From assembly GCA_021383565.1 (NCBI GenBank), contig CP079699.1, forward strand, positions 868,001 to 932,000: a DNA stretch of 64,000 nt, read 5' to 3'. How positions within the stretch are numbered: position 1 is the first letter of the stretch; the number at the start of each line of letters is the position of its first letter. Shown in pieces: positions 23,030-32,974 of the stretch. This stretch comes from Levilactobacillus brevis (GTDB lineage Bacteria; Bacillota; Bacilli; Lactobacillales; Lactobacillaceae). Below the pieces are notes generated by a model that did not search any database, had not been told where the DNA came from, and worked only from the letters and a program-made list of their open reading frames with translations. The translations under genes and the position numbers were made by a program.

Positions 23030-25063
23030 TTATGACCGGTAACGCCGAAAAACAATAGCTCCCAGAGAACTGAGTGCCAACACGATCAGGCCCCAAATCG
23101 TTATCCGATCTTTTTGTTCATTGGTCTGTGGAAGTGTGACTGGAGTCGCTTTACGGGCAGTTTTAGGCACGGCCTTTGCTGGAATGAGACGCTTTGCGGA
23201 AATCAAGGGTTGAACGGAAGCCTTCACCACTATCCCCTGAATCGTCGCACCGGCACTGCCAGCCACCACGCTTGCCTCATTCAACATGTCTGGGACAGAA
23301 GATGCCGCTGGCGTTGGCTCGGTTGGTTCCGCTGGTTTTGTTGGCGCTGGTTCTGATGGCGTTGGTTCTGATGGTGCAATCGGTTCCGGCGCTTGTGGTG
23401 CGGGCGCGACCGGTACGACGGGTGTCTCGGGATCGGGGCCGCCGTTATTACCGCCACCGTGCCCACTATCATCTACCGTGTAAATGTAGACGACGGTTTG
23501 CGGTTTGGCTGTGTATTGGCCGGTCGCGTTATGATCCTTAACTTCCTTGAACGTATACCCTTTGATTTTTAGCGGACTGGTCGTGTAGGCTTCCCCGATG
23601 TAGCCATCATTTAAGACCCGATCCTCGGCGAGTGCCTTTCCCGCTTCGTCTTGGTAATGGACGGTCACGGTGGCGGCTTTGTCGGATAGGATGTAGGGTT
23701 GGACAACGCTAAGGTAGGCATATTGGCCAACACGGTACTGACCTACTAAAAAATATGCATCTTTTTGGTAAATTACATGAGTTGGCTCAATTATACTCGG
23801 TAGTTTATTTCCTGACTCTTGCTCTTGAATATTTGTAAAATTCAAGCCTCCATCTCCATCTTTGGTCACACCTGGAATATTATTCTCTCCTTTCGGAAGA
23901 TATATCAAAGGATACCATCGAGCATACAGCTCCCCATTAGCATCTATCCAGACTGGTTCTCCTACAGCGAGAGTGGGAGCTAATATAATCTTTTTCCCGT
24001 CAGAAGAATAGTAATTGCCAACTATGTGTCCCGTTAGTTTCTGACGATCGACATAAATAGGGGGTAATTTAACAAATTGATTACCGTTAGCTTCTGGAAT
24101 AAGTTTTGGAAGGTTTGCTACCGGCCGGAAATCCCCAATATAATTCATGTTCGCATCAAAGTGTGTCAAATTTGTTAGGTTCGATAACACCGAGATATCA
24201 CTCACTTGATTGTTTTGAATATCCAATGATGTTAATTTTGTTAAATTAGCCAGTGGTGAAATATCTCGAACATCGCCCTGACAATGAGAAACACCATGAC
24301 TATCAGTATTCGTACCAGTATTAAGAATAATACCCGTTAGATTTTTTGCATACTCAAGCCCTTTTAACGAATACTCGGTTTTACCATCAATATAGGTGTT
24401 GTTATTGTTAAATTGCTTGAGCAACAGCATATCATCCTGAGAAATATCCGCAACACTTTGCCAATGTTTACCACTACCCAAGGCATTTAGATTTTTTAAA
24501 ATCGCCTGCTGTAATCTTTTGTTAGGCATCCATTGGTCAATGGTTTCAGTATCGGTTCGTGTGGTCGGCACCAGTTCCTTTTCCGCCGCTGCCGACTCAG
24601 GTCCAATACTCCTAGCGATTGCCGTATCATCTGAGTCACGATCATCTTTAGGGAAACTCAAACTACTCGAGTGCTCGTCAACAGAATTATTACCCTCTAA
24701 CTCACCTTGATTTTCGCTGACAGCCGTCACCAACTTGTTCGAAGATACTGGCGCCTTACTTGCGGACTCGCCCGCAACTTGATTAGCGTTAGTATCAAGG
24801 GAATCGTCATTATTAATATCACTATTGTCGGCATTATCAGCGCTGCCTTTAGGTATTGATGAATCCATTTCATCTGATCTGCTATCCACTTTCGATTGCT
24901 TCTCACCATTTGGCACAACACCTGATTGTCGCACACTATTCTCGACCGGAACAGTGTCTGCCCGCACCGTCTGCCCATTTACGCCAATTAACGTCAAGGC
25001 TATTACAGCCGCACTCGTTAAAACCTCACACTTAGTAAATCGCCGCTTTTCTCTCACTAGCAT
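23030..25063 (-). CDS. Sortase-anchored LRR/MucBP surface protein
   Basis: 677 aa from ATG 25063; GGGAG lies 11 bases upstream, and the longer frame to 25087 uses TTG. Order: signal peptide (basic REKRRFTK then hydrophobic AAVIALTLIG, cleavage near AxA at residue 35), Asp/Asn/Ser-rich acidic region to about 150, leucine-rich repeats near 230-325 (LTSLDIQNNQVSDISVLSNL), a WW-rich middle domain, a MucBP domain near 470-540 (VTVHYQDEAGKAL, YTFKEV), a Pro/Glu/Thr repeat near 550-600, LPQTN sorting signal at 644, membrane helix and RRYRS tail. It should be covalently wall-linked and may bind mucin or host surfaces. The LRR half is distinctly AT-rich, unlike the GC-rich C-terminal third. Confidence 0.92.
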   Translation of the reverse strand: MLVREKRRFTKCEVLTSAAVIALTLIGVNGQTVRADTVPVENSVRQSGVVPNGEKQSKVDSRSDEMDSSIPKGSADNADNSDINNDDSLDTNANQVAGESASKAPVSSNKLVTAVSENQGELEGNNSVDEHSSSLSFPKDDRDSDDTAIARSIGPESAAAEKELVPTTRTDTETIDQWMPNKRLQQAILKNLNALGSGKHWQSVADISQDDMLLLKQFNNNNTYIDGKTEYSLKGLEYAKNLTGIILNTGTNTDSHGVSHCQGDVRDISPLANLTKLTSLDIQNNQVSDISVLSNLTNLTHFDANMNYIGDFRPVANLPKLIPEANGNQFVKLPPIYVDRQKLTGHIVGNYYSSDGKKIILAPTLAVGEPVWIDANGELYARWYPLIYLPKGENNIPGVTKDGDGGLNFTNIQEQESGNKLPSIIEPTHVIYQKDAYFLVGQYRVGQYAYLSVVQPYILSDKAATVTVHYQDEAGKALAEDRVLNDGYIGEAYTTSPLKIKGYTFKEVKDHNATGQYTAKPQTVVYIYTVDDSGHGGGNNGGPDPETPVVPVAPAPQAPEPIAPSEPTPSEPAPTKPAEPTEPTPAASSVPDMLNEASVVAGSAGATIQGIVVKASVQPLISAKRLIPAKAVPKTARKATPVTLPQTNEQKDRITIWGLIVLALSSLGAIVFRRYRS

Positions 25064-25089
25064 TGCATTCACTTCTCCCAATAGCAATA

Positions 25090-25394
25090 ATTCACGAAAA
25101 TATCTCTAAAATCATAATCATACAGAGCATAGCATGAGCCAGCAAACTAGGCAACACTATAAACAACATTATATAATCGCTGAGTCTCTAATAACCACGG
25201 GATTTAGACAGCCTTTCTCCCCTAATCTTTTCTCGCATCATCAAGATAAAAATACTAGGCATACACGATACAAATAAGAATTTATATCTATATTTAAATA
25301 ATTAGGGACCCATCCGCAATAGCTCCATGCCGGGTAAAATAAAAACGCCCTTGGAGGACGTTTTAGAATTCTGACACTTCCAATTTTATTCATA
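25090..25394. other. AT-rich gene-free interval
   Basis: Low-GC stretch upstream of the surface-protein gene. It probably contains its promoter, but no single -35/-10 pair stands out. Confidence 0.5.
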
Positions 25395-25752
25395 ATATTT
25401 CCGGACTCGGACCAGTCAACATTTTCGTAGTGCGGGTCCACGGCTTCATCGTCATACACTTATCCTAGACTGTTGGGCTTACCATCGCATTGACCACGAC
25501 CGCCTCATATCCCCAGGCAGCCGACTTAATCTTTCGAAACCAACGTAAGGTCTCCTTGGATAAGAAGTTTACGACTAATATGAACGGCTCCTAATTGTCT
25601 AAACGCTGACGGACCAAGCAAATACGCCGTTCCGAGACAACATAGGGCTCCAAACCGGCCTGATGATAAAGCCAGTCTTCCGTCCCTGGGAGGTCAGTGA
25701 TGGCATAAATTCTTTTTGAACTATCTGTTAGCAGCTCGCCTGAATACACCAT
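25395..25752 (-). pseudogene. Broken gene with two in-frame TAG codons
   Basis: One reading frame runs from ATG 25752 and reads well as protein (MVYSGELLTDSSKRIYAITD, LYHQAGLEPYVVSERRICLV), is cut by TAG at 25591-25593, continues as EPFILVVNFLSKETLRWFRK and AAWGYEAVVVNAMVSPT, is cut again by TAG at 25465-25467, and ends near 25395. Amino acid composition on both sides of the stops is protein-like. The original function is not recognised. It lies 34 bases after the 153-aa gene on the same strand, consistent with a decayed operon member. Confidence 0.55.
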
Positions 25753-25786
25753 CAACTGATCAGTTTTCCTTCGCTCATCTTAAGTA

Positions 25787-26248
25787 TTACTTTTTCAACT
25801 GCAAAGCATCTTCCCGATCAAGCTCCGCGTACCGCCGTTTAACAGCGGCAAGAAATTCGAGCTCTTGTTCAGAATAGAAGCTCTTAAATTCATCAACGCT
25901 AAACCCTGCCGGATCATCGGCCAAAAAGTTCAGGACCTCAGCAAACGAATGAGCATGTTCTTGATGGTGGTCTTTACGCGAGCGACTATTCCAAAAGGGA
26001 AAATACAGCCCGCTCTCGGAGAATTCACTCATGACCCAAATAATATCCCCTATCTCCGGTCCATGACTTCCGAAACTGCCCGTTGAATCTTCTTGACGCC
26101 ATTTCTGTTGAAACGGTGTATCCACCACCCATAATTCATCCCGTAAATGCTTCTTGGCAACGTTGACCGGTCGCATAACACCCTCATACTTGCGCTCAAA
26201 CCTGCGTTCAGCGTGATCAGCCCACAAACGACGAATAAATTTAAACAT
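25787..26248 (-). CDS. Hypothetical soluble protein
   Basis: 153 aa from ATG 26248 with GGAGATGGGG upstream. Basic N-terminus (FKFIRRLWADHAERRFERKY), then a Trp/Phe-rich middle (GDIIWVMSEFSESGLYFPFW) and an acidic helical end (FYSEQELEFLAAVKRRYAEL). No family recognised. Located 44 bases after the metallophosphatase gene on the same strand, so probably co-transcribed with it. Confidence 0.7.
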   Translation of the reverse strand: MFKFIRRLWADHAERRFERKYEGVMRPVNVAKKHLRDELWVVDTPFQQKWRQEDSTGSFGSHGPEIGDIIWVMSEFSESGLYFPFWNSRSRKDHHQEHAHSFAEVLNFLADDPAGFSVDEFKSFYSEQELEFLAAVKRRYAELDREDALQLKK

Positions 26249-26292
26249 GAGCCCCATCTCCAATATCTAATAGCTGTCTGCTCACAATACGA

Positions 26293-27105
26293 TTATTTAT
26301 CTTCAAACGCTTCAATCAACCGACCACTGTCAGCATCAAATACCGCAATATTTCCAATCTTCCCGGCAGGACCACTGTGGTTGCCGCCATCAACAAAGTA
26401 ACGCGGTTGCTCACCCGCATATTGAATCGTCAGAACGCCACTGGGACTTACCGTCCGATTACGCAACGTTGCCTGCGACTTGGGAGCATCGTAAATCCCA
26501 GTAATCAGGGAAGTCGGTGTATGACCACTGATAATGGCATAATCTAACGGGTTATGCGCATAGTTCGGGTAGATGGGGCCGTACCAATAGGGTTCTCGTA
26601 GCCAATATTTCTCATGCCGCGGGGTATCAGCTATTGGATCGGCAAGCGTAAGGTCTAACCCTGCATGCACAAAGAGTAAGTTTCCAATTGCCAACGTTAG
26701 CGGCAAAGCTCCCATCCACGCGATCAGTTCTGCATAGGATTGCTTAACAATCTGAAAGACATCGTCAATATCCTCAGCCGTTTCCCCCGTGGCTAAGGCC
26801 GCTTCAGCAATGACATCTTCTCCCGTACCATCTAACCAAAATTCATTCTTTCCCGTTAAGCTCTCCCAGGCGGCGGCATCGTGATTCCCCTGGATAGCGA
26901 AGACGTGCGTGGGGTCCGCGCGCTGCATCTCAAAAATTTTTTTCGCTGTAGCAAATCCAGTATGGTGGTGTAAGGAATCTTGATAGTCTCCGAGAAAGAC
27001 CACCGAAGCTCGGGGATAGCGCGCCCAAATTTTAGCTAATTTTGGAAAGACCAGCATTTGTCCATGCAGATCTGAGAGAACAATGACCTCGCGAATATTA
27101 ATCAC
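26293..27105 (-). CDS. Calcineurin-like metallophosphoesterase
   Basis: 270 aa from GTG 27105. All metal-binding motifs are present: DLHG near residue 13, GDYQD near 38, GNHDAA near 75, VHAGLD near 147 and SGHTP near 194. The spacing fits serine/threonine-phosphatase-like or Ap4A-hydrolase-like enzymes of Firmicutes; the substrate is unknown. The start is uncertain: AAAGGGG is only two bases before the GTG, and ATT at 27096 has better spacing but would be unusual. The GTG overlaps the last codons of the upstream degenerate copy in another frame. Confidence 0.88.
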   Translation of the reverse strand: MINIREVIVLSDLHGQMLVFPKLAKIWARYPRASVVFLGDYQDSLHHHTGFATAKKIFEMQRADPTHVFAIQGNHDAAAWESLTGKNEFWLDGTGEDVIAEAALATGETAEDIDDVFQIVKQSYAELIAWMGALPLTLAIGNLLFVHAGLDLTLADPIADTPRHEKYWLREPYWYGPIYPNYAHNPLDYAIISGHTPTSLITGIYDAPKSQATLRNRTVSPSGVLTIQYAGEQPRYFVDGGNHSGPAGKIGNIAVFDADSGRLIEAFEDK

Positions 27106-27618
27106 CCCCTTTCGAATCAAAAATAACCTGACGTTCCGACTTGTAGCGAACGACAAGCCCAGCAATCGGATTGCCAGCGCCGTACCAATACTTCACGCGT
27201 AGCCAAAGCAGCGAATTGTTCGGGGTATCCGGTCTAACCCCGCATGAACGAAGCAGATCTTGCCCGCAACAGAATTTACCGGTAGTGCCCGCATCCAGGC
27301 AATTAGGTCGACCTGCTGTTCTAAGACCAGCTGTCGGTCACGCGTGAGACTTTGGGCTCCGCCTAACACCTTAACTGCCGCCACTAAGGTATTAGTGCCA
27401 CCGAAGCCAAGCCAAGAGTCCCACTGAATATGGCTAAGGAAGTCCAGTGCCGCCTGAACATGATTTTCCATTAACACCACGGTATGCGTTGGAATGGCTG
27501 CCTGCATCGCGATACTTGGTCTGAACCTCTGCCAGTCGTTAATTTCCCGTGTAAATCCCCGAGAGCTATATAAATCGCCACTGAGCCTCTCCGCCTCACG
27601 CAGATACTTCAATCTCAA
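27098..27618 (-). pseudogene. Decayed metallophosphatase paralogue
   Basis: Reads from 27618 to a frameshift near 27225, after which the homologous frame continues DTPNNSLLWLRVKYWYGAGN to TAA at 27098-27100. Matches to phosphatase logic: GDLYSSRG where GDxxDRG is expected, ENHVQAALDF for GNHE, LIAWMRALPV and CFVHAGLD, the last two closely paralleling the intact gene downstream (LIAWMGALPL, LFVHAGLD). The N-terminal DxHG block is missing and key Asp/Gly residues are replaced, so the product would be inactive. Confidence 0.75.
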
Positions 27619-27761
27619 TTGTTGCTACCTTTGCTAACATCAAGGATAGCATTTTCCAGTACATAACTCAACAGTAATGTTAATTTAGACAAATAAACGT
27701 TATAAGTAACAGCTAGGCTCCACAATTTTTCTTCGAAACCCTACTGTCCATCCAATCCAAC

Positions 27762-29090
27762 TCAAACATCGGTTGGAAAAGTAAGCCGTGCACAAATGGC
27801 CGCATGATCCAATCGCTTAGGCTTTAACCACCGGTACGCCAGTGATTCAATTTCTATCCGCGGCGAAATGGTAATATGGTCATCGGCAATCTTCGTTTCA
27901 ATACCGTTTTTACCCTTGTGAATGAAACTTCCGCCACTCACTGGGGTCTGCAGCAACAAACCATATTTACCTAGTAGTTCACGCTGGACCAACTCACTTG
28001 CTGGTTCTTGGTCTAGGCCGGAATAATCTTCGTCCACAATGATCCGCGCATGATTATGGTCGCCAAGTAGGAGCACGATATCAGCCTCGCCCTCACGCTT
28101 TAACCGCTGAATCATCTTTTCAAGATGGGGTAACGCATCCACGGACATATTCTGATATCCCGCCGCACTGAGATCTTGACGCTCGCGATGTGCCTGATAG
28201 CTCTCGTCAGACAATGCCGGATGAAGTCTAATTGAAGCAATCCCCAATTTGACACCCGAGTACAGTGGCAATACCGTTGCCAAGTAATCACAACCTGAGG
28301 GTTCCGCTGGATAGTAGCAGGGAAGCTTCTCCCGTAGCGAAATGAGTCTAGGACCAAACGCTAACAGACATTCATTGTCATGGTTGGTAGCAGGACGCGG
28401 ATCTGTCATGACTCGGTAGTTGGCCGCCTCAAGCTGCTTCACGAAGTCAGGGAAATCGGCGGTCTTGTACAGTTCATTAAACGCAAGTAAATCCGGTGCT
28501 TCTTCCAATTCATCCAAGGCTGGCAGGACATCTTCTTTGAGTGAGGCATTGAGGTTAGTCTTTCCCGCTTTGCCATTCAAGTTTAGACTCAATACCTGAT
28601 AAGTCGGCGACGCCATTTCCTTTAAAAGATTGTCGGTCAAAATTTGTGGTACAAACAGGGTTTGCGTCGTTTCGTACTGCTTGTTGAGAACCGCTATGAG
28701 GGCAGCTCGCTCGTCACTGGTAGAGATGTAAGGGGCAAATGCCGTGTGACATAAGTTAGATAACACCCGAAATAATCTATTTAGACGTTTCGTCGCCACG
28801 CGGATAAATCGCGTATTCTTTGCACTAATCGGCTCCTGAGTAAACTCAAACTTGGTCATTAAATCATCTTGAGTTGGATTAGGTTGTTCTGAGTCAAAAC
28901 ATTGCTCGATTACTTTCAAGCTGTGCTGCCAGGCCGCAAACATTTCCTGCTCATTTTGCCGTGTAAATTCGTACGTTTGCGGTCTATACGCCAAGGCCTG
29001 AAGCAGTTCATTAATGTCAGCCAACTGGCGAAAGCGCCGGCTAACCACTCGAATAAAACGAAAATGTTGATCAATTTTAGCTTCTCTCAT
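27762..29090 (-). CDS. EEP-fold phosphatase/nuclease with two N-terminal repeat modules
   Basis: 442 aa from ATG 29090, AAGGAG 9 bases upstream (the frame opens at 29117 without a site). Residues 1-60 and 93-146 are two diverged copies of a helical module starting FRFIRVVSRRF and TRFIRVATKRL. The C-terminal 270 residues are an endonuclease/exonuclease/phosphatase domain: LSLNLNG near 168, catalytic Glu in FNELY near 206, IRLHP near 288, GDHN at 343-346 and DDHI near 403. The catalytic set looks intact, so it may cleave DNA, RNA or a phosphoester. The divergent gene at 29863 consists of two copies of the same module. GC is lower than in the core genes around it. Confidence 0.85.
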   Translation of the reverse strand: MREAKIDQHFRFIRVVSRRFRQLADINELLQALAYRPQTYEFTRQNEQEMFAAWQHSLKVIEQCFDSEQPNPTQDDLMTKFEFTQEPISAKNTRFIRVATKRLNRLFRVLSNLCHTAFAPYISTSDERAALIAVLNKQYETTQTLFVPQILTDNLLKEMASPTYQVLSLNLNGKAGKTNLNASLKEDVLPALDELEEAPDLLAFNELYKTADFPDFVKQLEAANYRVMTDPRPATNHDNECLLAFGPRLISLREKLPCYYPAEPSGCDYLATVLPLYSGVKLGIASIRLHPALSDESYQAHRERQDLSAAGYQNMSVDALPHLEKMIQRLKREGEADIVLLLGDHNHARIIVDEDYSGLDQEPASELVQRELLGKYGLLLQTPVSGGSFIHKGKNGIETKIADDHITISPRIEIESLAYRWLKPKRLDHAAICARLTFPTDV

Positions 29091-29126
29091 GATTCGATTC
29101 TCCTTAAAAATATCCATTCACTTATC

Positions 29127-29155
29127 ATTAAACAATTAACAATGATACGGGGCAA
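29127..29155 (-). promoter_or_regulatory. Promoter of the EEP gene
   Basis: The minus strand has TTGCCC at 29150-29155, a 17-base spacer and TTTAAT at 29127-29132. Confidence 0.5.
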
Positions 29156-29813
29156 TCACTAATATATTGGCTGCCTTTTCTGCCCAAAACCATCGTTTGC
29201 TCCTTACCCCCTTTTTCTTATTTATAAAAGGTGATGTTAACTTCCTTATTGTTCTCCCTCACTTGAATCAGTTTTAAATTGATCATCTCTTAGAAAGTTA
29301 TGCTCCAAAAAATCAAAAGCGAACTTCTTCCCTCCTCTCGATAAATCAAGCATAACATATTACATAATTATATGATACTACCTTTTGCATAAAATTGAAT
29401 ATGCTGATTTCTAATCGCCTTATTGAATAGTAAGCGCCAGAGTTAAAAGACATAGAAAAAATGCTAAGCTTAAAGGCATAAAAGTTATCTGACAGGATGC
29501 TCTTATGCCTCTATTACTTTACATGTGGCAGTGAAGACCGGCCATGGTTTTTTTGGAGGGCTTTGAGACCGCATGTAAAAATGGCCACTTCAAGAAGCGC
29601 TTGAATCTCTACAGCTTTTGACATATACTCACACGCCATTCACAAGATTGAATAGCAAAGTTGTCGATATATTATTTGAAAAAATGATGAACCTGAAGCC
29701 TAATCCACCACTCTCTTCGCCTCATCCTACCATTTCAACTTTTCGTCGGATACAGGTTCGACCAATTGTTTTACCGTAAGACCATTTAAAATCGGAAGCT
29801 CGACAACCGAACG

Positions 29814-29842
29814 TTGACCGGCCGCCAAACCATCTTTACAAT
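29814..29842 (+). promoter_or_regulatory. Promoter of the two-module gene
   Basis: TTGACC (29814-29819), 17-base spacer, TACAAT (29837-29842); the predicted start is only about 14 bases before the ATG, leaving just room for GGAGGTG. Confidence 0.7.
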
Positions 29843-29862
29843 AGTCTTTATGGAGGTGTCAT

Positions 29863-30339
29863 ATGGAATCACGAAACCAGAAGTTCCGGCGTTTAGGCGC
29901 AAGTAGAATGACCCGAATCTTTCAGGTGATGAACCTTATTGCCAACCTGAGTGCCCCACAATATGTTTATACCATTGATGACATTACGGAGTTGTTCACC
30001 ACCTATCGAGAACTAGGCAAGGCCTCTCAGGAATATTTTCAAGAGACTGGCCCTACCCGTTACAACGAAATGCCCGATAGCTTCGTTTTTAAAAATCAGT
30101 CAACAACTAAGCCAGAATCACGCGCAGCTCACGAACGTTTCCGCCGCTTAGCCGAAAAAAGGATGAGCCGCGTCGTTCACACCCTACGCTTACTGACAAA
30201 TCTCTCGGACCGATCAAATTACACCTACTCTACCGAAGAAGTGACTGAATTATTTGTAGCCTTCAAGAAAAAAGGGCAAGCAGTGGAAGCGCTGTTTGCC
30301 CCCTTGGAGACTGAATTTAATTTTAAAAACAAAGAGTGA
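29863..30339 (+). CDS. Two-module helical protein related to the EEP enzyme N-terminus
   Basis: 158 aa, ATG 29863 after GGAGGTG. It consists of two tandem copies of one module: residues 7-60 (FRRLGASRMTRIFQVMNLIA, then NLSAPQYVYTIDDITELF) and residues 92-146 (FRRLAEKRMSRVVHTLRLLT, then NLSDRSNYTYSTEEVTELF). The pattern F-R-x-L-x(3)-R-M-x-R, N-L-S, Y-x-Y-[ST], E-L-F, closing F is conserved within the protein and, more weakly, in both N-terminal modules of the divergent EEP enzyme. The modules have no catalytic signature, suggesting a binding or oligomerisation role. Confidence 0.82.
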   Translation: MESRNQKFRRLGASRMTRIFQVMNLIANLSAPQYVYTIDDITELFTTYRELGKASQEYFQETGPTRYNEMPDSFVFKNQSTTKPESRAAHERFRRLAEKRMSRVVHTLRLLTNLSDRSNYTYSTEEVTELFVAFKKKGQAVEALFAPLETEFNFKNKE

Positions 30340-30489
30340 TTATTTCTCAAGTTTACTCAACTAAATTTAAAATTAACGTCTACATCAACGAGGTGTGTTT
30401 TTTGTGTCTCAGTATATATGACAAAAATGCTATTATTTTCTTTCTATTTACTTAAATGTGTGTTACTTTAAGGCTTGGAGATGTTAAAA

Positions 30490-30741
30490 ATGAAAATGAA
30501 TCCCAAACCTTTGCTAGATCTAATTTTGCCGCACATCGGGAGCTCTATTCCCGCCAACATAGTACATCAGGTATTTATCCAGAAGCTCCTACAACAGTTC
30601 CCCAGCTACAGTCACAAGAAATTAGCTCGAATTGCATCCGGAAGCATTGGTGGCGCGTCAGCCCATAAAACGATCATGTTCCATCCTGAGTTTCAGCCTA
30701 ATGGTTCTAATAAGGAATGCGTTATCGTAAGAGTCAAATAG
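30490..30741 (+). CDS. Hypothetical small basic protein
   Basis: 83 aa from ATG 30490, with TTGGAG 9 bases upstream (ATG 30481 overlaps that site). N-terminal helix MKMNPKPLLDLILPHI, middle HKKLARIASGSIGG, and a strand-like FQPNGSNKECVIVRVK end. No family recognised. It is 150 bases after the two-module gene and is followed by a strong terminator, so it may belong to the same transcript. Confidence 0.6.
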   Translation: MKMNPKPLLDLILPHIGSSIPANIVHQVFIQKLLQQFPSYSHKKLARIASGSIGGASAHKTIMFHPEFQPNGSNKECVIVRVK

Positions 30742-30755
30742 CTTATAAGAATAGG

Positions 30756-30790
30756 ATGACAAGTCCTCACTTTTCAGGACTTGTCATTTT
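30756..30790 (+). terminator. Terminator after the 83-aa gene
   Basis: ATGACAAGTCCT (30756-30767) pairs perfectly with AGGACTTGTCAT (30776-30787), followed by TTTT. Confidence 0.9.
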
Positions 30791-31141
30791 TATTTAAACA
30801 TAATCACTATAATTCATAGAAAATACATCTAACCATGCAAATAATTCACATAAAATTTAATCCTAAATTCTGCTGAAGTCCATCGTAAAATTTCCACTTG
30901 ATTAAATCTAAAACCGTACGGCTTCTGGGTAAAAAAACGAAATACACTCTATCTACCGAATTTAGGTTGACTTCAAGATTAGAGTAAAGAAAAGGAACCC
31001 AATTCGAAAATGAATTTGAGTTCCCAATATCTCCTCATCAGCATCGGTTGACAAAGAATCTTTTTAAGGCTTGTCGATATGTCGACAAATGGTAGGCAAA
31101 TGGGCGGCAACCGTAAAGGCAGTTACCCACAACCCGCGTCG
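30791..31141. other. Gene-free interval before lepA
   Basis: AT-rich, no supportable gene. It contains the hairpin at 30994-31024 and a short TTGTCGATATGTCGACAA-like inverted repeat at 31072-31086. Confidence 0.6.
30990..31024 (-). terminator. Possible lepA terminator
   Basis: The minus strand forms GGAAC.CAAATTC/GAATT.GGTTCC followed by TTTTCTTT, about 120 bases after the lepA stop. Confidence 0.6.
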
Positions 31142-32974
31142 TTATTTAGTTTCATCCTCATCAGTCTTCAAAACTGCCATGAATGCTTCTTGCGGGATAT
31201 CTACCTTCCCAACGGCCTTCATGCGTTTCTTTCCGACCTTCTGTTTCTCCAACAGTTTCATCCGCCGGGTACGGTCACCACCGTAGAGCTTGGCGGTCAC
31301 GTCCTTCCGGTAGGCCTTGATCGTGGTTCTGGCAATGATCTTGGCACCGATTGCGGCTTGAACTGGGATTTCAAAGTTTTGGCGTGGGATAATGCCCTTC
31401 AACCGCGAGGCAATCTCTCGACCCCGTTGTGCGGCGAACGTCCGATGCGCGATGAAGCTCAGTGCATCGACCTTATCTCCATTCAACAGGATATCGATCT
31501 TGACCAGATCAGCCTCTTGGTAGCCACTACGCTCGTAGTCCAATGACGCGTAACCGCGGGTACTGGACTTCAATTTATCGAAGAAGTCGAAAATAATTTC
31601 CGACAGCGGCATATTATAGATAATATTCACGCGGTAATCGTCCAGATACTCCATCGTCAGGAATTGGCCCCGCCGGTGTTGGCACAGCTCCATGACCGCG
31701 CCCACATAGTCGTTTGGCGCCATGATGGTCGCCTTCACAATGGGTTCTTCAATCCGCTTGATGGCGGAAGCTTCCGGCATCTCGGCTGGGTTCTCCACCG
31801 TCTTCATCGTCCCGTCCGTCAAGTACGCGTGGTACGTTACGGATGGCGCCGTGGTAATCAAGTCCAGATTGAATTCACGTTCTAGCCGTTCCTGAATGAC
31901 ATCCATGTGGAGCATCCCCAGGAACCCACACCGGAACCCAAAGCCCAACGCCTGCGACGCTTCTGGTTCAAATTCCAACGCGGCATCGTTTAACTTGAGT
32001 TTCTCCAGGGCTTCACGCAAGTCATTCAACTTGGCATTATCCGTAGGGTACAGCCCGGCGTAGACCATCGGGTTCATTTCCCGGTAGCCCGGCAGCGCCT
32101 TCTCCGCGGGCATCTCAGCGTTGGTGACTGTATCACCCACTCGGGTATCCGCGATATCTTTGATGCTGGCCGTAATGTAGCCCACGTCGCCGGCAATCAG
32201 GTAATCACGCGCGATCGGCTTTGGCGAGTTCACGCCGACCTCGGTCACTTCGTATTCACTCCCACTGTTCATCAGGAGAATCTTATCACCGGGTTGAACG
32301 GTACCCTCAAAGAGCCGCACGCTCATGACCACACCACGATAATCATCGTAAACGGAATCGAAGACCAGCGCTTTCAACGGCGCGTCCAAATTACCAGTCG
32401 GTGCCGGCACCTTGTGGACGATCTGTTCCAGCAACTCCGGAATCCCCACGCCCTGCTTGGCACTCGCCAGAACGGCATCGGAAGCATCCAGACCAATCAC
32501 GTCTTCAATCTCTTGCTTGACCTTATCCGGGTCAGCCGCGGGCAAATCAATCTTATTGACAACCGGCACAATTTCCAAGTCGTCGTCTAGCGCCAAGTAA
32601 ACGTTGGCCAAGGTCTGCGCCTCAACCCCCTGAGCGGCATCAACGACCAGCACCGCACCCTCACAGGCCGCCAGACTCCGTGAGACCTCATAGGAGAAGT
32701 CCACGTGCCCCGGTGTATCAATCAGGTGGAATTCATAGTCGTGGCCGTCCTTGGCGTGATACGTCAGTTCAACGGCGTTTAACTTAATCGTGATACCCCG
32801 TTCGCGTTCAAGTTCCATGCTATCCAACACTTGATCTTGCATATCGCGCTTGGAGATGGTATCCGTGAGCTCCAAGATTCGGTCCGCAATCGTTGATTTC
32901 CCGTGGTCGATATGGGCCACGATGGAAAAGTTACGGATGTATTTTTGATGGTTTTTTAATTTCTCAAGATCCAT
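31142..32974 (-). CDS. lepA: Elongation factor 4 (LepA), ribosomal back-translocase GTPase
   Basis: 610 aa. G1 AHIDHGKST near residue 20, G2-region RERGITIK, G3 [14 protein letters not shown] near 85, G4 NKIDLP near 139, then domain II, domains III/V and the LepA-specific C-terminal domain ([20 protein letters not shown]). It binds stalled ribosomes and promotes reverse translocation. Preceded by its own promoter at 33012-33040 and flanked by terminators on both sides, so it is monocistronic. Confidence 0.98.

Follow-up and report, generated by a model that had tools for sequence, protein, structure and literature searches.

Why should a predicted nuclease and a small, separately encoded protein carry the same repeated module? 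The question is raised by two divergent genes in a 64,000-nt stretch of Levilactobacillus brevis DNA (GenBank assembly GCA_021383565.1, contig CP079699.1, positions 868,001 to 932,000 of the forward strand; hereafter the window, with positions counted from its first letter). One gene encodes a predicted EEP-type phosphoesterase/nuclease and the other a protein of 158 amino acids (aa), each with two copies of a helical module. The host genome, 2.68 Mb in size, is designated G000; other genomes and the loci read in them carry G and L numbers, and the genus-mates include Levilactobacillus andaensis (G002) and L. enshiensis (G025). The answer that we favour, tentatively and with somewhat less than even confidence, is that the module is an adaptor of an accessory phosphoesterase/nuclease island at a hotspot next to lepA and has been captured in cis by the enzyme, its function being inferred. 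The gene pair has the following parts:

27762..29090, minus strand: EEP-type phosphoesterase/nuclease (predicted) with two N-terminal helical modules, 442 aa; catalytic residues, profile link and hidden Markov model (HMM) matches to the modules
28875..29072, minus strand: enzyme module 1, residues 16-81 of the 451-aa reading; HMM 16.3-24.1 bits
28653..28829, minus strand: enzyme module 2, residues 97-155; HMM 8.6-14.2 bits alone
27762..28601, minus strand: EEP catalytic domain, residues 173-451; alignments of four and seven proteins
29863..30339, plus strand: tandem-module protein, 158 aa; HMM, AlphaFold, ribosome-binding site GGAGGTG
29863..30054, plus strand: small-protein module 1, residues 1-64; HMM 33.4 bits
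30121..30309, plus strand: small-protein module 2, residues 87-149; HMM 63.3 bits
29091..29832, no strand: AT-rich intergenic DNA between the enzyme and the tandem gene, single copy in the genome

The open reading frames (ORFs) of 158 aa (29863-30339, plus strand) and 451 aa (27762-29117, minus strand) were both found at the positions given in a preliminary description of this DNA. For the enzyme, a start at codon 10 (29090; 442 aa) is more likely than one at 29117, because AAGGAG precedes that ATG and the ortholog in G017 begins there. A search for RNA families across 25000-31500 gave no Rfam match.

The evidence that the four modules are homologous comes from profile searches. With the 158-aa protein as the sole query, its own genome yielded the N-terminus of the enzyme at E 5.8e-6 (27% identity, residues 7-148, collinear). 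A profile of 14 module sequences (A2), to which the small protein and two orthologs contributed their second modules, was built without any enzyme module and without any first module. It gave 24.1 bits at residues 17-78 of the enzyme and 14.2 bits at 99-158 (whole protein E 5.5e-10, Z 20000), and 37.2 and 94.0 bits for the two modules of the small protein, the value of 94.0 being expected by construction. A stricter profile was made from 49 single-module proteins, none titled as Lactobacillaceae. This profile scored the small protein at 97.7 bits, the whole enzyme at 26.8 and the first 170 residues of the enzyme at 30.8; only these two proteins stood out among 358 ORFs of the window, the third in rank reaching 5.0 bits. 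The maxima from 2000 shuffles each were 9.9 bits for the enzyme N-terminus and 8.2 bits for the small protein. By these scores the four window modules are homologous beyond chance, as the preliminary description had proposed in assigning two to each protein, and the HMM check that it suggested recovers both modules in each. The repeat unit is real, but its length is about 65-75 residues rather than the 55 first given. All four modules retain F, R, L, Y and F at the positions most conserved among the 49 proteins, but enzyme module 1 lacks the N that is nearly invariant in the turn. A tree of the modules places the copies of enzyme module 1 in one clade and those of enzyme module 2 in another (support 0.998 and 0.959); module 1 groups with the tandem modules (0.832), and a long branch leads to module 2 in another part of the tree.

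Two kinds of weaker match to the tandem protein were also seen. Frames of 833-835 aa in G035, G042, G047 and G055 (E 0.002-0.006) were treated as chance, because G042 was reported neither by the tandem-family profile in the family sample nor by the module profile in Bacillota (limit E 1e-4). G632 contains an interrupted tandem-like frame (one TGA and three TAA codons) at E 1.4e-5.

The 158-aa protein is predicted to form two helical hairpins. In an AlphaFold model built from 56 sequences, which had a mean predicted local distance difference test score (pLDDT) of 94.1 and a predicted template modelling score of 0.86, helices span residues 4-30, 38-57, 84-115 and 124-143. Foldseek searches with this model gave nothing at E ≤0.001 in PDB (59 matches to E 10) or BFVD (88 to E 10), and no relative of established function. 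The best VIA-align Z, 6.8, is in the range common for helical bundles; the absence of a structural match does not establish a novel fold. Neither window protein matched Pfam or exceeded a PADLOC cut-off, NCBIfam matches to the two were far below cut-off, and PHROGs matches were weak (best E 0.013 and 0.088). The 14 module sequences matched scattered Pfam models at a best E of 0.0015. In the Pfam, NCBIfam and PADLOC libraries the module matched no named family. A literature search, judged by titles and abstract openings and with subscription journals and preprints mostly outside its scope, found no paper describing the module, and the terms 'DUF6339' and 'PDC-M33' yielded none.

The catalytic residues of the EEP domain were said to be kept, and they are: all four module-bearing enzymes have the same N, E, R-L-H, D-x-N, D-H and D-H. 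These enzymes come from G000, G017 and G011 (three of 98 genomes searched) and from G542. The N, D-x-N, H and D-H are also invariant across seven proteins that include the module-free EEPs of the islands described below. A family sample of 397 genomes contained three with a module-bearing enzyme, the fourth match, in G740, being the tandem protein. The link to the EEP superfamily by profile is indirect. The window enzyme alone reached no Pfam model and no EEP chain in the PDB, and profiles of the four module-bearing enzymes alone found no EEP chain. When the four were joined with three EEPs from sister islands, the profile found the EEP structure 3teb_A at 7.2e-5. Alignment by hhalign of the module-bearing enzymes with sister EEPs gave 90% (E 1.6e-6) and 86% (E 5.1e-6), and 13% with two sister EEPs only; among the four sister EEPs, P0003 passes the Pfam cut-off, with 33.2 versus 24.5 bits. 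An AlphaFold model of the enzyme from a two-row alignment had a pLDDT of 33, with few homologs. We regard the window enzyme as a predicted EEP-type phosphoesterase/nuclease. No module-bearing EEP was matched in phages, plasmids or viral contigs, and a single-protein scan of genome contigs, limited to short exact patterns, found none. In G542 a gene at L144:6485-7843, immediately upstream of the module-bearing EEP, encodes a protein of 452 aa whose C-terminal part is a Resolvase domain (PF00239, E 9.9e-38).

The small protein had been described as built from the docking modules of an enzyme. The survey does not support that derivation: the stand-alone module is common and the enzyme fusion rare (four genomes), although the forms were sought by different searches. 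The commonest form found is a stand-alone single-module protein of about 75 aa. Searches by tblastn found it in five phage and 14 plasmid records, and pattern scans gave 15 viral-contig loci and 69 genome loci, 64 with one module and five with two. A gene of a GHKL-type ATPase cluster was next to the module gene in 45 of the 64 single-module genome loci, a count biased upward because the scan patterns came from modules mostly beside such ATPases, and was the second gene in five more. Such a gene came next in 8 of 12 plasmid and phage loci read and in 3 of the 15 viral-contig loci, 4 of the 15 ending early. The module gene often overlaps the ATPase gene or lies tens of bases away, and single-module genes are mostly co-directional with the operon and first in it. 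Several plasmid copies have dcm, vsr and type II endonuclease genes as neighbours. Recurrence near defence or mobile genes, which had been suggested as a check, was thus observed beside restriction-modification genes, in a candidate phage-defence operon, and in plasmids, phages and viral contigs. In two Synechococcus phages (L030:4992-5270 and L031:5001-5273) the stand-alone module lies among small early-type genes.

The neighbouring ATPases form two large clusters of 38 and 15 proteins, with GHKL boxes RE..QNS.DA, D.nT.GL and GGsfGiGk in one and TELmTNmvDA, DnGEGQ and GKfNMGSsG in the other. Pfam HATPase models matched 3 of 10 ATPase-like proteins, L079 at the cut-off (25.0 bits) and L032 and L061 below it, and gave no match to the PDC-M33-type representatives L078, L092 and L089. 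Because Pfam HATPase matches so few, the GHKL assignment rests on these motifs and, for one operon, on PADLOC, where the model name PDC-M33A makes no mention of GHKL. Our own regular-expression scan for GHKL boxes (18 of 87) was too strict and some of its matches were accidental, and the counts given here use profiles built from the ATPase clusters instead. In the one operon tested, from L. andaensis, PADLOC reported PDC-M33A, B and C at E 4.7e-116, 6.2e-63 and 6.6e-53. A module gene lies just before PDC-M33A at L054 7001-7222 (= L020:8797-9045), L164 1248-1487 and L166 1233-1463, and may be an overlooked optional component of PDC-M33. The module profile matched 4 of 299 Bacillota genomes including that of the window; in the other three an ATPase-cluster gene was next in two, and one match was at a contig edge. 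Of two Lactobacillaceae genomes, G674 (L146) has the module gene diverging from the ATPase operon, and G426 (L147) has it immediately in front. A variant operon in L096, L108, L115 and L117 consists of the module gene, a gene for a protein that opens with repeated NLSVRAYNCLKKAGV units and a GHKL-type ATPase gene; the repeated units are reminiscent of the C-terminal domain of the RNA polymerase alpha subunit.

The two-module form has a different setting. Full-length two-module proteins were found in G000, G017, G025, G535, G710, G577 and G740 and in Metasolibacillus (L119). All seven Lactobacillaceae tandem genes lie within 3 kb of a calcineurin-type metallophosphoesterase and on the strand opposite both flanking genes of at least 100 aa. 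The divergent neighbour varies by locus, being an EEP, a type A phosphoesterase, a 275-aa protein of no assigned function or others. The recurrent members of this island are several types of phosphoesterase, one of them extended by an N-terminal domain, a 158-aa and a 256-275-aa protein without assigned function, and an EEP, which is module-bearing in G000 and G017 and module-free in G025, G535 and G710; in G577 and G740 the 18 kb read contained no recognisable EEP. In the window the island and its flank contain, besides the gene pair:

26293..27165, minus strand: calcineurin-like metallophosphoesterase, type A; Pfam Metallophos 2e-8, homologs beside the tandem gene in G017, G025, G535 and G710
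27193..27618, minus strand: shortened relative of the type C metallophosphoesterase, apparently decayed; phmmer 6e-30 to the full-length type C of G025
25787..26263, minus strand: 158-aa island protein, function not assigned; homologs in G017, G025, G535, G710 and G023
31142..32974, minus strand: lepA, anchor of the variable flank, outside the island; flank comparison

The gene lepA is present in all 33 Levilactobacillus-group genomes. Its 3′ flank in 10 further genomes contains the island in G023 only, and other genes in the rest, so that the island was found at 4 of 13 flanks read (window, G017, G025 and G023). The GC content of the island is 45.7%, compared with 50.7% for the window and 53.3% for lepA. 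The island is accessory and located at a variable chromosomal site, the lepA hotspot.

Several other features of these loci were noted. A large surface protein with leucine-rich repeats, a MucBP domain and an LPQTN-like anchor adjoins the island (window 23030-25087), and an unmatched 88-aa ORF lies at 30475. One island phosphoesterase has an N-terminal domain of about 180 residues with no Pfam match (L019:580-1872 and L017:7660-8943), which by eye may be a degenerate polynucleotide-kinase domain. The island phosphoesterases may be like polynucleotide kinase-phosphatase; NCBIfam bacter_Pnkp gave only E 0.051. The phosphoesterase island does not surround the enzyme in G011 and G542, which have the EEP without the tandem protein. 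Small accessory genes are common to EEP-only and tandem loci, one in G011, G535, G710 and G008 and another in G542 and G710. A protein of 76-92 aa with 'LGPMKY...DFGGSLEMLGKCHSYD' and no Pfam family (L142:4739-4969, L143:3683-3922, L018:10105-10335 and L151 near 5691) is encoded in tandem loci, in the EEP-only locus of G011 and in the lepA flank of G008. A small protein with CxxC pairs is common to the G710 island (L143:4757-5032) and the EEP-only locus of G542 (L144:9790-10122).

How might one module serve these settings? The analysis establishes the homology of the modules, a predicted hairpin fold, the neighbourhoods and the variable site; we infer that the module binds proteins, that the tandem protein and the enzyme share one assembly, and that the island acts in defence or nucleic-acid end processing. 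The docking reading follows from anatomy: the module is short, is encoded before or overlapping an ATPase gene, occurs in tandem in one protein and is fused to an enzyme in another. The helical hairpin would serve as a protein-docking adaptor. In many bacteria a one-module protein, encoded just upstream of a GHKL-type ATPase, would be an optional subunit in restriction- or defence-type operons. In Lactobacillaceae the two-module version would belong with the calcineurin-type phosphoesterases and the EEP enzyme of the accessory island. In the window lineage, the EEP enzyme could join the same assembly in cis, since it carries two modules itself.

A number of observations weigh against this adaptor reading. 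Both proteins occur in just 2 of the 9 genomes with either at full length (G000 and G017). The G023 island has a module-free EEP, which passes the Pfam cut-off, and no tandem protein; the stretch read around the Metasolibacillus tandem gene contains no phosphoesterase; and PADLOC reported nothing convincing for ten island neighbours. On the ATPase side, besides the bias in the count of 45, 13 of the 64 single-module genome loci have no GHKL gene and one ends early. In a reverse test, PDC-M33A was found in 7 of 398 Bacillota genomes, with a module within 1.5 kb upstream in only 2 of the 7. The partnership of module and ATPase is therefore at most optional. Among ten genomes searched, PDC-M33A was found only in G002; the other nine, that of the window included, have the tandem protein or a module-bearing EEP but no PDC-M33A, and the ATPase link therefore fails to explain them.

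The alternative that survives best, itself doubtful, makes the module a hairpin that binds nucleic acid or regulates transcription: the tandem protein would control the operon divergent from it, and the enzyme would hold DNA or RNA with its own copies. The first helices of the hairpins are basic (net +6 and +5) with an invariant R, the tandem gene is placed divergently, and every setting involves nucleic-acid enzymes. The second helices, however, are acidic (-3 and -1), and structure comparison of the tandem model matched no DNA-binding fold. In addition, single-module genes are mostly co-directional, operon-first and sometimes overlapping, with one divergent case (L146).

It is unlikely that the tandem protein is a specific inhibitor, or antitoxin, of the EEP enzyme that competes with or caps its N-terminal modules. 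The two proteins share modules and are divergently adjacent in G000 and G017, separated by 745 bp in the window and by 134 bp in G017. The tandem gene is opposite both flanking genes in all seven Lactobacillaceae loci, and such placement is common for autoregulated control genes. On the other hand, G011 and G542 have the enzyme alone and five genomes (G025, G535, G710, G577 and G740) the tandem protein alone, and the divergent neighbour is not constant. An obligate toxin-antitoxin pair is unsupported because both proteins are present in just two of nine genomes. Genes of type II toxin-antitoxin systems occur together and form co-directional, usually overlapping operons; these genes are divergent and seldom found together. 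The toxin-antitoxin or inhibitor pairing raised in the preliminary description is thus disfavoured, as judged from gene content and layout.

A further reading, which we consider distinctly improbable, takes the island for the decaying remains of a mobile element, in which the two genes no longer serve any common function. The genes are patchily distributed, in the window the type C phosphoesterase is shortened and a further two island genes are lacking, and nothing at the G017 locus corresponds to the 742 bp that separate the gene pair. Both ORFs, however, are uninterrupted, each with a good ribosome-binding site, and share 76% (enzyme) and 82% (tandem protein) identity with their G017 orthologs, with catalytic and module residues preserved. 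Chance likeness of Leu/Arg-rich helices can be set aside as exceedingly improbable: enzyme module 2 on its own scores just 8.6-11.0 bits with the 49-protein profile, but the 26.8 and 30.8 bits above exceed every one of the 2000 shuffles (maximum 9.9) and all other window ORFs (best 5.0), and the enzyme orthologs give concordant module scores (15.9, 16.9 and 30.1 bits for module 2 in three of them). What probability remains beyond these five readings is assigned to ideas not listed.

If the module is a docking unit, as the adaptor reading holds, it joins two gene sets previously unconnected in the searches made, the GHKL-ATPase restriction/defence operons and the EEP/phosphoesterase island of lactobacilli, and gives a function to the small 'hypothetical protein' gene heading candidate defence operons. 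The window pair would be a compact two-protein test of binding and activity, because the same module is present in trans (158-aa protein) and in cis (enzyme). A broader proposal is possible, though we rate it as speculative: the module may be a connecting part, so far overlooked, that can be exchanged between bacterial conflict systems. It would serve several different GHKL-ATPase (paraMORC-like) defence operons as an optional subunit, and Lactobacillaceae would have adopted it to tie an EEP nuclease and a set of phosphoesterases into a single assembly that acts in trans, the tandem protein being its bivalent scaffold. The stand-alone copies in cyanophages and viral contigs could then be assembly-breaking decoys.

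GHKL ATPases of restriction-modification operons, EEP enzymes and metallophosphoesterases are already known kinds; the module itself is unnamed. Among the closest known relatives is phrog_35258, a phage family of no assigned function, which matches 4 of the 14 module sequences (best E 2.2e-10) and some single-module relatives; it matched the tandem protein only at E 0.013, PHROGs having no cut-off. PDC-M33, a PADLOC candidate defence system of a GHKL-like ATPase (M33A), M33B and M33C/DUF6339, is similar in that a single module gene heads the operon in L. andaensis (G002/L054) and on several plasmids. It differs in that PADLOC reported no hit to the module gene and that 5 of the 7 M33A genes sampled have no module upstream, and the window differs in belonging to a genome without PDC-M33A. 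Passages of Iyer et al. (2008; PMC2292703) report MORC/paraMORC GHKL ATPases in operons with restriction-modification genes. The module-adjacent genes resemble these prokaryotic MORC/paraMORC genes in their GHKL N-box and glycine boxes and in the frequent company of dcm, vsr and endonuclease genes, and by motif and context the ATPases appear paraMORC-like; the same passages mention no small helical partner. With the EEP superfamily (Exo_endo_phos, PF03372) the window enzyme shares the complete catalytic residue set and, through the sister-island EEPs, a profile-profile link, but it reaches no Pfam model and its N-terminus carries the two modules. Finally, calcineurin-like metallophosphoesterases (PF00149) are the recurrent neighbours of the tandem gene. 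What sets the present case apart is that several paralogous types share one island with an EEP enzyme and module proteins.

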